Assembly (NCBI RefSeq): GCF_013408535.1
Contig: NZ_JACBZA010000001.1
Location: 2,378,850 to 2,442,849 of the forward strand
DNA: 64,000 bases
From: Actinopolymorpha cephalotaxi
Lineage (GTDB): Bacteria > Actinomycetota > Actinomycetes > Propionibacteriales > Actinopolymorphaceae
Direction of reading: 5' to 3'
Made by a program: the position numbers and the translations under genes. Below, in pieces: positions 43,095-61,582 of the stretch (positions are counted from its first letter, which is position 1; each line of letters starts with the position of its first letter). The notes under the pieces were generated by a model that saw nothing but the letters and a program-made list of their open reading frames with translations, did not search any database and was not told the DNA's origin.

Positions 43095-43619
43095 ATGAGC
43101 GAGACCACGGCAGTCCCGGCGGCGCGGCGCGAGGCCCGGCCCGAGGACGCGCCGGTGGTCGCCGGCTCCACCGCCGGGCGCCCGTTCGTGGTGGTCGGGG
43201 TGGACGGTTCGGCCTCCGCGGAGGCCGCCGTGGAGTGGGCGGCCGAGGAGTGTGCCCGCAGGGGCGCCCGGCTGGTCCTTCTGCACGTCCGCGAGCCGGT
43301 GGTGGGTTCGGTGCTCACCGTGGAGTCCCGGCGCTACCGGGCCCGGTCGGTGGGTGACACCGTGGGGGACCTGTGGGAGCAGGTGAACCAGCTGCGGGAC
43401 CGCCGCGTCGACGCCGAGGGCCAGGTCGAGGAGGGCACCGCCGACCAGGTCCTGATCAGGGCGTCGGAGGACGCGGAGCTGCTGGTGGTGGGCGCGGAGG
43501 GCGCCGACAGGCACCGTGGCCTGCTGCTGGGCGAGGTGGCCCAGCGGTGTGCGCGCGGCGCCAACTGCCCGGTGGTGATCATCCCGCCACCCGGCGGCCG
43601 GCCGGGACCCGCTGCCTGA
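43095..43619 (+). CDS. Universal stress protein (single domain)
   Basis: A 174-residue UspA-fold protein: VVVGVDGSASAEAAVEWAAEECARRGARLVLLHV (~38-71) and LLVVGAEGADRHRGLLLGEVAQRCARGANCPVVII at the C-terminus. The ATP motif G-x2-G-x9-G-S/T ends in GE, so nucleotide binding may be weakened. GGGGGAGG at 43082-43089 fixes the ATG at 43095. Convergent (8 bases) with the sensor kinase. It opens the DevR-like stress island. Confidence 0.9.
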   Translation: MSETTAVPAARREARPEDAPVVAGSTAGRPFVVVGVDGSASAEAAVEWAAEECARRGARLVLLHVREPVVGSVLTVESRRYRARSVGDTVGDLWEQVNQLRDRRVDAEGQVEEGTADQVLIRASEDAELLVVGAEGADRHRGLLLGEVAQRCARGANCPVVIIPPPGGRPGPAA

Positions 43620-43627
43620 GGGGGGAC

Positions 43628-45394
43628 CTACTGCTTGAGCGGCACCTGCCAGATGAGCACCGTTCCGCCCTGGGCTCCCGGCTCCACCGTGAGGTTGCCG
43701 CCGCATCGGCGGGCGCGCTCTGCCATGTTCGTGAGGCCGCTGCGGCGCGGCGGGTCGGCGGGGATGCCCACGCCGTTGTCGGTGACGTGCAGCTGGAACA
43801 TCCGGTGCCCCACGTCGGCCTGGATCAGCACGTCGGCGTGGCTGGCGTGGGCGTGGCGTACGACGTTGGCCAGCGCCTCGCGCAGGGTGGCCAGGACCTC
43901 CGGGCGCAGGCTGTCGGGCACCGCGGAGTCCAGCGGGCCCTCCAGCGCCACCCGCGGCTCGAACCCCAGCGAGGAGGCCGCGTCCTGGGCGATCTCCAGC
44001 ACCTGACCGCGCAGGCTGCGACGGTCGGTGGCGCGTTCCTGCAGGGAGAAGATCGTCCGCCGGATCTCCTGGATCGTGGTGTCGAGGTCGCGGACGTACC
44101 CGCTCACCCGGTCGGCGAGGTCGACGCGCACCACCTGGCGGGAGATGCCCTGCAGCCCGAGCCCGACCGCGAACAGCCGCTGGATCACGTGGTCGTGCAG
44201 GTCGCGGGCGATCCGGTCGCGGTCCTCGAACACCGCCAGCCGGCCGCGATCCTCCTGCGCCCGGGCGAACTCCAGCGCCAGCGCGGCGTGCCCGGCGAAG
44301 GTCGTCACCATGTGCATGTCGGTGGAGTCGAAGCCGGCCTGGCCGTCGGGCCGGGTGACGATCAGCACGCCCAGCATGTGCGGACCGGACGCGAGCGGGA
44401 CGAACAGCATCGAGCCGCCCTTGAGCTGGGCCGCCCGCCCGCCGCCGTCGTCCCATCCGAGCGAGGCCGCGTCGCCGTCGTAGACGTAGGGCCGGCTGGT
44501 GAGCAGGACGTCACCGATCGGGGTTCCGACGGTGGAGACCCGCTCGTTGCGCAACCGGTCGGCCTGCGGGCCGGCCACCGCCTCCAGCACCAGGTCGCCG
44601 CCCTCCTCGTCGACCAGGGCGAGCATCGCGAGCTCGGCGCTGGCCACCGCGCGGGCACGCTCGACGATCAGGTCGAGAGTCTCCCCGAGCGAGGCGCCGG
44701 ACAGCAGGTGGGCGGTGATCTCGGTGGACGCGATGAGCCAGGCCTCACGCCGCCGGGACATGTCGTACAGGCTGGCGTTCTCGATCGCGATACCGGCGGC
44801 CGCGGCCAGCGCGACGACGACTTCCTCGTCCTCGTCGGTGAAGTCGCCGCCGCCCACCTTCTCGGTGAGATAAAGGTTGCCGAACGCCTCTCCGCGGACC
44901 ATCACCGGAACGCCGAGGAATGACCTCATCGGCGGGTGGTTGGGCGGGAAACCGGAGGAGTTCGGGTGCCGGGAAAGGTCGTGCAGCCGAATGGGGTGCG
45001 GCTCGTTGATGAGCAGCCCGAGGATTCCCTTGCCGGTCGGCAGGTGGCCGATGTTGCGGCGCATCTCCTCGGTGAAGCCGGTGTAGGTGAACTCGCTCAG
45101 GGTGCGGTCGGGACCGATCACCCCGAGTGCGCCGTAACGCGCGCTCACCAGATCACAGGCCGAACGCACGATTCGTTCCAGAACCTCCGGCAAGGACAGG
45201 TTGCTCGCCACCGAGACGACCGCGTCCAGAAGGCGGTGCACCCGGCGTTCGTTCTCGACCAACTGGTCCGCGCGGTCGACAAGCTCACGCAGCAGGGTTT
45301 CCAGGCGAAGCCTGCTGAGGTCCGGCAGCAACAGGTCCTGTGCGGACTGGACTTCCCTGGGTCGCTCAGGACCCGGCGTCGTCTCCGCGTCCAT
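43628..45394 (-). CDS. GAF-domain sensor histidine kinase, DevS/DosT-like
   Basis: A 588-residue kinase. Two GAF domains (about 60-210 and 230-380) are followed by a HisKA_3 domain with phospho-accepting H400 in [22 protein letters not shown] and an HATPase_c domain ([26 protein letters not shown]). The arrangement matches mycobacterial DevS/DosT, oxygen/redox sensors that phosphorylate DevR. Whether the first GAF domain binds haem cannot be judged by eye. There are no membrane helices, so it is cytosolic. GGAGGAGG precedes ATG 45394. The probable partner regulator lies 3.3 kb away at 48684 on the opposite strand. Confidence 0.9.
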
Positions 45395-60336: not shown

Positions 60337-60403
60337 CGCACTCACCCGAATCCGGCGAACCGGCAGACATTCTCGACCCTCTCAAAGGTTTCCGGGAGGA
60401 AGC

Positions 60404-61582
60404 ATGATCGATGCCAGGCAGGTGGAACGGCTCCTCGGCTACCGCGATCCGGACGGGGCGGTGCTCTCGCTCTACGTCGACGTACCGGCCCAGCCGGTCG
60501 CGATACGGGAGATGCTCGTACGGGTGGACAACCTGCTCGCCGAGCAGGCCGACGCGGCCCGGGACGCACCGCACACCGTGCGGCGGGAGCTCGCCGAGGC
60601 GCGTACGTGGGTACGGGAGGCACTCGCCACGCACGTGCGGGACTGGCTCGGCCACGGCGTCGCCCTGCTGGCGGCACCGTCGCTCGGCCTGCACGAGGCG
60701 ATGCCGGTGTCGTGGCCGGTGCACACGCGGGTGGTGGCCGACCGCCGTCCGTACGTGCGTCCGCTGCTGTCGGCGCTCCACCATGCCCGGCCGTACTACG
60801 TCGTGGTGGTGGAACGTCGCGAGGCGTGGATCTTCCGGGTGGACGGCGAGAGCATCGAGTCGGTCAGCAAGCTGGTCGGGGACGGCGTCCGCGACTCCTC
60901 CCACGCCGGCTGGGCGGGCTATGAGGAGTACAACACCCGCCACCGGGCGGCCGAGCTCGCCCGGCGCCACTACCGTTCCACCGCGGCGACGGTGGAGAAG
61001 CTGCTGGCGGCCAACGGCCGCGACCTCGTGGTCGGCGGCCACGAGGTCGGCATCGTGGAGTTCGTCGGCCAGCTGCCCGACGCCGTGCGGCGGCGCCTGG
61101 TGGGCACGTTCGTGGTCGACCCGCACACGATGACCGCGGGCGACGTCCGCGACCTCAGCGCCCGGGCCCGTGACCGACGCAGGCGCGAGCACGAACTCCG
61201 GGTGCTGGCCGAGGTCGCCGACCGGGAGGCGAACGGACTCGCGGTGAGCGGGATCGAGGCGTGCGGTCAGGCGGTCAACCGCGGGCAGGCGGCGATGCTC
61301 GTCGTACGCGACGACGCCGTCGTCGCGGGCTTCGACTGCGAGACCTGCGGCGAGCTGACACCGAAGGCGGCGGCGACCTGCCCGCACTGCGGCGGTCCGC
61401 TGCGCCCGGTGTACGACCTCGTGGACGAGTTGCTCGCCCGGGTCGTGCAGCAGGGCGGTCAGGTGGAGTTCGCGGACCAGGTGAGCGGAGCCGGCGGCTC
61501 CGGCGAGCCCGGCTCGGTCGGTCCGGCCGGGGAACCGGTCAGCGCGATGGTGCGTAGCCGGCTGGTCCGCCCGGATCGCTGA
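60404..61582 (+). CDS. baeRF family eRF1/Pelota-like protein (Rv2629 type)
   Basis: A 392-residue protein of the bacterial eRF1-like superfamily: an N-terminal domain beginning VERLLGYRDPDGAVLSLYVDV, a central eRF1 domain 2-like segment (YYVVVVERREAWIFRVDGESIESV, AAELARRHYRSTAATVEKLLAANGRDLVVGGHE) and an eRF1 domain 3/Pelota-like fold with a zinc ribbon (CETCGELTPKAAATCPHCGG, ~321-340). The mycobacterial relative Rv2629 belongs to the DosR regulon. A ribosome rescue or hydrolase role is possible but unproven. GGAGGAAGC precedes ATG 60404. Confidence 0.82.
   Translation: MIDARQVERLLGYRDPDGAVLSLYVDVPAQPVAIREMLVRVDNLLAEQADAARDAPHTVRRELAEARTWVREALATHVRDWLGHGVALLAAPSLGLHEAMPVSWPVHTRVVADRRPYVRPLLSALHHARPYYVVVVERREAWIFRVDGESIESVSKLVGDGVRDSSHAGWAGYEEYNTRHRAAELARRHYRSTAATVEKLLAANGRDLVVGGHEVGIVEFVGQLPDAVRRRLVGTFVVDPHTMTAGDVRDLSARARDRRRREHELRVLAEVADREANGLAVSGIEACGQAVNRGQAAMLVVRDDAVVAGFDCETCGELTPKAAATCPHCGGPLRPVYDLVDELLARVVQQGGQVEFADQVSGAGGSGEPGSVGPAGEPVSAMVRSRLVRPDR

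Follow-up and report, generated by a model that had tools for sequence, protein, structure and literature searches.

The window analysed here is a stretch of 64,000 nucleotides (G000:C1:2378850-2442849) from a one-contig genome (6,858,585 bases) of Actinopolymorpha, a genus of Propionibacteriales. Within it lie, close together, genes for three universal stress proteins (USPs), a sensor histidine kinase, a response regulator, a PPOX-class protein, a hemerythrin, an Acg-family nitroreductase, HypF, Hsp20, an Rv2632c-like protein, a class I aldolase and a baeRF protein (Table 1). We consider it quite probable that this cluster is a DevR/OsdR-type hypoxia/redox dormancy island whose HypF is the remnant of an island-borne [NiFe]-hydrogenase locus and has a non-classical role. 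An island of the DevR/OsdR type is already known from Streptomyces; the orphan HypF appears to be the new element.

Below, G000 is the genome with the window and G001 to G007 are other genomes of the same family; genes were identified with a gene caller and with Pfam and NCBIfam models. All genes named in an initial annotation of the window, which had read the cluster as DosR-like, were recovered in this way. Its list lacked the sortase gene and its neighbour, the DUF4389 gene, the small gene upstream of PPOX and the genes past the window end.

Regulatory pair and conservation of the island

By its sequence the regulator is DevR/OsdR-like: its best solved relative is Mycobacterium tuberculosis DevR (3c3w; E = 3.2e-72), with VraR next (1.7e-45). 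The kinase is predicted to be of DosT/DevS type with a heme-binding GAF-A domain. Its best solved relatives are 2vzw (2.6e-53), which we take to be the GAF domain of DosT, and GAF domains of DevS, including GAF-A, and it keeps HPPMR and NLYLT segments whose histidine and tyrosine are presumably heme-side residues. These relatives and the conserved OsdR/DosR-like boxes described below bear out the DosR-like reading. A second, more diverged DevRS-like pair is found in G000 at 3.37 Mb (L044 12225-16566), at a locus that also has a DoxX gene and a nitroreductase related to that of the island.

The regulator has matches at E = 1e-60 in 25 of 38 genomes. We fetched 30 kb around it from six matching members of the family (G001 to G006); G007, the seventh family relative, gave no regulator match at this threshold. 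The kinase, regulator, hemerythrin, nitroreductase, HypF, Rv2632c-like, aldolase and baeRF genes stand in broadly the same order in all six, so the cluster is more than chance; comparison of gene content in related genomes, which had been suggested with the initial annotation, thus found the arrangement largely kept. Hsp20 is present in five of the six (not G001), as is PPOX (not G006). In G001 (L033), the DNA upstream of the Rv2632c-like gene resembles the Hsp20 promoter and both ends of the gene, with the middle missing. Six further 20-kb regions of the order, picked among genomes with a regulator match, hold smaller versions of the island: in one family (G009, G017, G019 and G025) the PPOX gene adjoins the regulator in 4/4 and the kinase is in range in 3/4. 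Of two genomes from another family, the region in G034 shows a PPOX-type match only, and that in G015 a PPOX-type match together with kinase and nitroreductase matches.

Promoter boxes

Upstream regions of G000 to G006 were compared by eye for kept GGGACC-type boxes. Such boxes are kept before USP2, PPOX, the hemerythrin gene (as an array) and the aldolase gene, partly before Hsp20 (box region kept in G002, its first box in G004, partial in G003, G005 and G006) and more weakly before USP1, where the box-like GGCGACCATCGGC is retained with small changes in G001 to G005. Two GGGACYATCG boxes separated by 9 to 13 bases occur in all six Actinopolymorpha genomes, each time, judged by the coordinates, only before the hemerythrin gene, and the reversed-pattern control gave 0 matches.

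Published motifs were tested on 3007 bp of island intergenic DNA, with the expectation taken from 280 kb of the same genome; each of three motifs (one of them in both orientations) and each of two control strings was run at two mismatch limits. The Streptomyces coelicolor box GGGACCTTCGGCCC gave 7 sites versus 1.03 expected at up to 3 mismatches (P = 1e-4). At up to 3 and up to 4 mismatches, respectively, the M. tuberculosis core gave 1 versus 0.09 and 5 versus 0.74 (P = 0.001 for the latter), another Streptomyces consensus (GGGCCGATCGGCCC) 4 versus 1.10 and 10 versus 8.07, the scrambled control 3 versus 1.49 and 13 versus 10.50, and the reversed control 1 versus 1.01 and 2 versus 8.07. A matrix made from 17 boxes of G003, G005 and G006 scored 8 sites at 12 or more in the 19-kb island versus 26 in 280 kb of background, in a scan that is not independent, its training boxes having been chosen by eye from orthologous promoters; the test with published motifs is the fairer one.

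HypF and its missing partners

The island HypF has all five Pfam domains and scores 494 bits against TIGR00143 (cut-off, 466.1); the G006 homologue, at 285.4 bits, is below that cut-off. Matches to zf-HYPF in G000 are confined to the island and are two fingers of one protein. Searches of G000 found no HypC, HypD, over-threshold HypE or PF00374 ([NiFe] large subunit) match; HypA and HypB were not searched. Among the eight family genomes, HypD, HypC and HypE over the cut-off were each found in one, every time G007, in which hypF, hypD and hypE lie together. HypD is likewise absent from the named records of A. pittospori, A. rutila and A. alba (3/3), which are the same genomes as G003 to G005. 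PF00374 matched weakly and partially, once per genome, in G003, G005 and G007, and not at all in the other five (G000, G001, G002, G004 and G006); the G005 match was rejected as a hydrogenase, being complex-I-like with far stronger PF00346 and PF00329 matches.

The cyanide ligands come from HypE and HypF, with HypC-HypD serving as the scaffold (PMC12130793; the cited papers are used here as excerpts). If HypC, HypD and HypE are missing, the classical path cannot operate in its known form. HypF had first been seen as a lineage-specific addition to the island; it is special in a different way, in that HypC, HypD, HypE and the [NiFe] large subunit were not found in the genome.

For comparison, HypF loci were gathered from the genome_contigs collection with two short patterns from the island HypFs, one of them with HHH, which biases the set toward resemblance to the island. 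The best 80 of 190 confirmed candidates included 3 from Actinopolymorpha, 67 with HypD in the fetched stretch and 10 without it. The genomes of seven of these ten were tested, and HypD was present elsewhere in six, the exception being Streptomyces sp. SDr-06. At least two island-type families are in range in 23 of the 68 HypD-linked loci (the 67 and G007) and none in 28, a co-occurrence that is a loose sign, USPs and nitroreductases being common families. At the locus of Streptomyces sp. SDr-06 (L110), HypF lies near DevR-type regulators, a DosT-like kinase and USPs; no HypD was found in this draft genome, and its HypF alters only 2 of the 137 columns defined next.

Across the 68 HypD-linked HypF rows, 137 columns are invariant. 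The seven island HypFs alter 19 to 31 of them (25 in the window protein), and the G006 protein additionally lacks 32. Leave-one-out over the 68 rows gave a median of 0 and a maximum of 2 except for G007, and the ten HypFs without HypD in range alter 0 to 2. The G006 protein (L043:1255-3429) has its zinc-finger region and TSGN motif missing in a frame that is open over 724 amino acids (aa).

In a HypF tree of 84 rows, the seven island HypFs form one clade (support, 100), with two Phytoactinopolyspora HypFs as sister (support, 99 for the joint clade); the tree was made by a quick method, and G006 and G007 are long branches. The Phytoactinopolyspora limicola locus (L098) resembles the island in its DevR-like regulator, DosT-like kinase, USP, Rv2632c-like protein and sister-clade HypF, and differs from it in having HypC, HypD, HypE, a PF00374 protein, Fe-S and NAD-binding partner proteins and a HycI-type protease.

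The ratio of nonsynonymous to synonymous change (dN/dS) for HypF, calculated with a custom script of the Nei-Gojobori type, is 0.26 against G004, 0.22 against G002 and 0.25 against G001; in the same three close pairs, it is 0.21 to 0.22 for the nitroreductase, 0.18 to 0.23 for baeRF and 0.01 to 0.05 for the regulator. HypF is thus under purifying selection between close species. A protein that is altered, has lost its partners and is still selected points to a function other than classical [NiFe]-cofactor synthesis.

Interpretation and alternatives

We propose that the DosT-like kinase would sense loss of O2 (or NO or CO) at its heme GAF domain and phosphorylate the DevR-like regulator, which would in turn act at GGGACC(T/A)TCG-type boxes to switch on several promoters of the island. 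The 21-bp-phased array would serve the hemerythrin and nitroreductase genes and possibly HypF, and the products would buffer O2 and NO, protect protein and perhaps, through baeRF, silence ribosomes. HypF has likely been retained, in modified form, from a hydrogenase maturation set that the island once carried: from an ancestral [NiFe]-hydrogenase locus in the island, the hydrogenase and HypC, HypD and HypE would have been lost, HypF would have stayed, and its residues would have changed, probably in that order. Its present role would be something other than classical cofactor synthesis. We give an even chance to the fuller proposition that in Actinopolymorphaceae HypF, freed from hydrogenase maturation and very long kept in a DevR-controlled dormancy island, has acquired a new function: carbamoyl transfer to another target, or a role involving carbamoyl-phosphate, redox or zinc.

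Several results weigh on the other side. Among the boxes, the excess of GGGACCTTCGGCCC at 4 mismatches is only 16 versus 7.95, and the background of the test is mainly coding DNA; a matrix built on 17 published S. coelicolor sites shows no enrichment over the window (5 sites reach a score of 8 or more, where a first-order model predicts 12.8), and no window site agrees with the M. tuberculosis 20-mer consensus at more than 14 of 20 positions. Co-regulation, which had been inferred at the outset, stays a prediction from sequence, supported by the conserved boxes at several promoters. No box lies directly upstream of HypF, which may be read through from the hemerythrin and nitroreductase genes. 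As for the missing partners, below-threshold matches to the HypE model occur in 8/8 family genomes and in all 14 controls, and PF00374 is a weak detector that gave only one partial match in G007 with its hyp cluster; the case for a missing hydrogenase thus rests mainly on the missing HypC, HypD and HypE. The HypF of G007, a genome that does have HypC, HypD and HypE, is itself very diverged (27 of 164 columns), so deviation alone is no proof that the classical role was lost. Finally, HypF dN/dS against G003 is 0.40.

One alternative is that HypF has turned to another carbamoyl transfer or to carbamoyl-phosphate turnover in dormancy, which we regard as possible, at somewhat short of even odds. 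The G000 protein keeps its zinc-finger cysteines, the HHHAH motif and the DGxGxGxDG loop, and the gene shows purifying selection and has been kept since the split from G006. A role as the tRNA t6A enzyme was rejected: a separate Sua5/YrdC protein exists in G000, so HypF is not needed for tRNA threonylcarbamoylation. On the other hand, V replaces Q at 29 and T replaces N at 52 in the acylphosphatase loop, TSGN has become TGAH (G at 431, H at 433), and the SGG motif carries S at 816. These changes, at sites that we take to be catalytic, speak against normal chemistry, and we know of no acceptor.

The same TGAH change can be read together with HHHAQ at the HHHAH motif of A. alba (G005) and the loss of zinc fingers and TSGN in G006 as invariant residues lost differently by lineage, as would be expected if HypF were a dying relic, carried in the operon and translated without a selected function; the dN/dS against G003 agrees with this. 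Yet the frames are open (724 to 866 aa) in 7/7 genomes, and dN/dS in the three close pairs is like that of the nitroreductase and baeRF, and we think a dying relic unlikely. That the cluster is a loose stress neighbourhood and not one regulon under the regulator at 48684 is improbable: HypF has no box of its own, the test with the 17-site matrix was negative and G000 has a further DevRS-like pair at 3.37 Mb, but conserved boxes stand at several promoters and the published Streptomyces island works as a regulon (PMC5069765).

Comparison with known systems

The reading of the cluster as a DevR/OsdR-type island with a remnant HypF can be set against known systems. The M. tuberculosis DosR regulon shares with the island the regulator, kinase, USP, Acg nitroreductase, Hsp20, Rv2632c/Rv1738-type and Rv2629-type families. 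In S. coelicolor, OsdR binds and activates promoters in a region with USPs, PPOX, nitroreductase and hemerythrin, and the OsdKR region is clustered at SCO0167-SCO0219 (PMC5069765). The Actinopolymorpha island is like it in its DosT-like kinase, DevR-like regulator, USPs, clustering, PPOX (SCO0214), nitroreductase (SCO0215), hemerythrin (SCO0212) and some GGGACCTTCGGCCC boxes. In contrast, the nitrate reductase and pyruvate phosphate dikinase of the OsdKR region are not among the island proteins scanned, and the excerpts mention no HypF, Hsp20, Rv2632c-like protein, aldolase or baeRF there, a comparison by description only; the word hydrogenase does not occur in the main text of PMC5069765.

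In M. smegmatis, a DosR-type cluster (msmeg_3932-3955) and a hydrogenase with neighbouring gene numbers (MSMEG_3927-3931) are both raised in hypoxia (PMC2799521); there the hydrogenase genes are numbered beside the DosR-type cluster, whereas Actinopolymorpha has only HypF. Hypoxia activates Rv2629 and Msmeg1130, both of which bind ribosomes, and Rv2629 is a baeRF relative that is hypoxia-induced in M. tuberculosis (PMC10901736). The island baeRF protein, a relative of the Balon/Rv2629/Msmeg1130 ribosome hibernation factors (RHF), matches all three RHF models listed significantly, at 61.0, 52.7 and 50.3 bits, far below the respective equivalog cut-offs of 480, 320 and 330; judged by these scores it is a homologue only of Balon-type factors, and a candidate for ribosome binding.

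These systems change part of what had been claimed for the locus. An island outside mycobacteria is indeed present, but as a novelty it was preceded by the Streptomyces one published in 2016 (PMC5069765). The contrast between a compact island and genes scattered in mycobacteria needs care in view of the SCO0167-SCO0219 region and the M. smegmatis cluster. Hemerythrin and baeRF do not hold as lineage-specific additions, since SCO0212 lies in the Osd region (PMC5069765) and the baeRF relative Rv2629 responds to hypoxia (PMC10901736).

In the open-access PMC literature, we found no paper joining Actinopolymorpha and DosR and nothing on DosR with group 3b hydrogenase; its listings and abstracts gave no orphan HypF of the island kind (sought with DosR, with orphan, carbamoyltransferase and actinobacteria, and, among the 10 of 85 papers listed, with missing hydrogenase). 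With this locus the DosR/OsdR island type reaches a soil genus whose promoter signature is clean and conserved, so that regulon evolution can be tested outside pathogens. The locus also agrees with indications that [NiFe] hydrogenases are found alongside DosR-type islands. The orphan HypF would show, in nature, a maturation enzyme that has survived the loss of its client, and it questions the reading of HypF as a sign of hydrogenase.

Other features of the locus

Table 1. Genes and box-like sites of the island (positions in the window).
Feature	Position	Strand	Remarks
USP1 box-like GGCGACCATCGGC	~100 bp upstream of USP1		4 mismatches to published box
USP1, universal stress protein	43095-43619	+	PF00582, 2.8e-23
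Sensor histidine kinase, DosT/DevS/OsdK-like (predicted)	43628-45394	-	GAF-GAF-HisKA_3 and HATPase
OsdR-like box	45866-45879	+	2 mismatches to GGGACCTTCGGCCC
Small gene	46288-46722	+	no Pfam match
PPOX-class protein	46813-47289	-	PF12900, 2.3e-29
OsdR-like box GGACCTTCGCC	47521-47534	-	facing PPOX
OsdR/DosR-like box GGGACTTTGTGCCC	47585-47598	+	upstream of USP2; GGGACTTAGGTCCC in G005 (A. alba)
USP2, degenerate universal stress protein	47683-48687	+	PF00582, 6.5e-06, 27.2 bits (cut-off 24)
DevR/OsdR-type (NarL/DevR-type) response regulator	48684-49352	+	best solved relative 3c3w DevR
USP3, tandem universal stress protein	49426-50292	+	PF00582, 3.4e-47, 2 stretches
Three OsdR-like boxes GGGACCATCG	50410-50461	+	before hemerythrin; at 50410, 50431, 50452; 21-bp phase
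Hemerythrin HHE protein	50513-51040	+	PF01814, 9.6e-24
Acg-family FMN nitroreductase	51037-52107	+	NF047509, 4.7e-84, 282.6 bits (cut-off 199)
HypF	52275-54875	+	acylphosphatase, two zinc fingers, YrdC-like, Kae1-like (Pfam)
Box region GGGACCGTTCGGGC ... GGGCCGGTCGACTC	54893-54937	+	upstream of Hsp20; one 3-mismatch site at 54902(-)
Hsp20/alpha-crystallin chaperone	54993-55439	+	PF00011, 2.1e-20
Rv2632c-like protein	55479-55868	+	PF08962, 7.7e-34
Sortase	55949-56764	-	mid-island
Gene of no assigned family	56769-57467	-	beside sortase
DUF4389 gene	58197-59249		gene call
OsdR-like box CGGACCTTCGCCCC	59309-59322	+	upstream of aldolase
DeoC/LacD-family class I aldolase	59443-60336	+	PF01791, 1.7e-39
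baeRF (baeRF10) protein	60404-61582	+	PF18854, 4.5e-21

For USP1, the gene caller picks a GTG start at 43056, and an in-frame ATG lies at 43095. Over 23 residues, the product of the small gene at 46288 matches the DoxX-type protein encoded at the second DevRS locus. The Rv2632c-like gene is the sole PF08962 match in the genome; the aldolase scores below the NCBIfam equivalog cut-offs, and the baeRF protein also matches NF052288 (9.6e-17) and NF052289 (3.7e-14), both below cut-off. A PADLOC run on four proteins gave no matches. The sortase gene is kept in G001 to G004. Intergenic short tandem repeats with 16-, 10- and 11-bp units lie near the regulator (49343-49405 and 47298-47450) and vary among relatives.

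The island seems to continue past the window end (L055 291-9544, equivalent to window positions 64091-73344). Two USP genes enclose this stretch; between them, two nitroreductase genes flank genes for a GH65 enzyme and a HAD protein. M. tuberculosis Rv2006 is a HAD and GH65 fusion of the DosR regulon. The second of these nitroreductase genes has a box 78 bp upstream.

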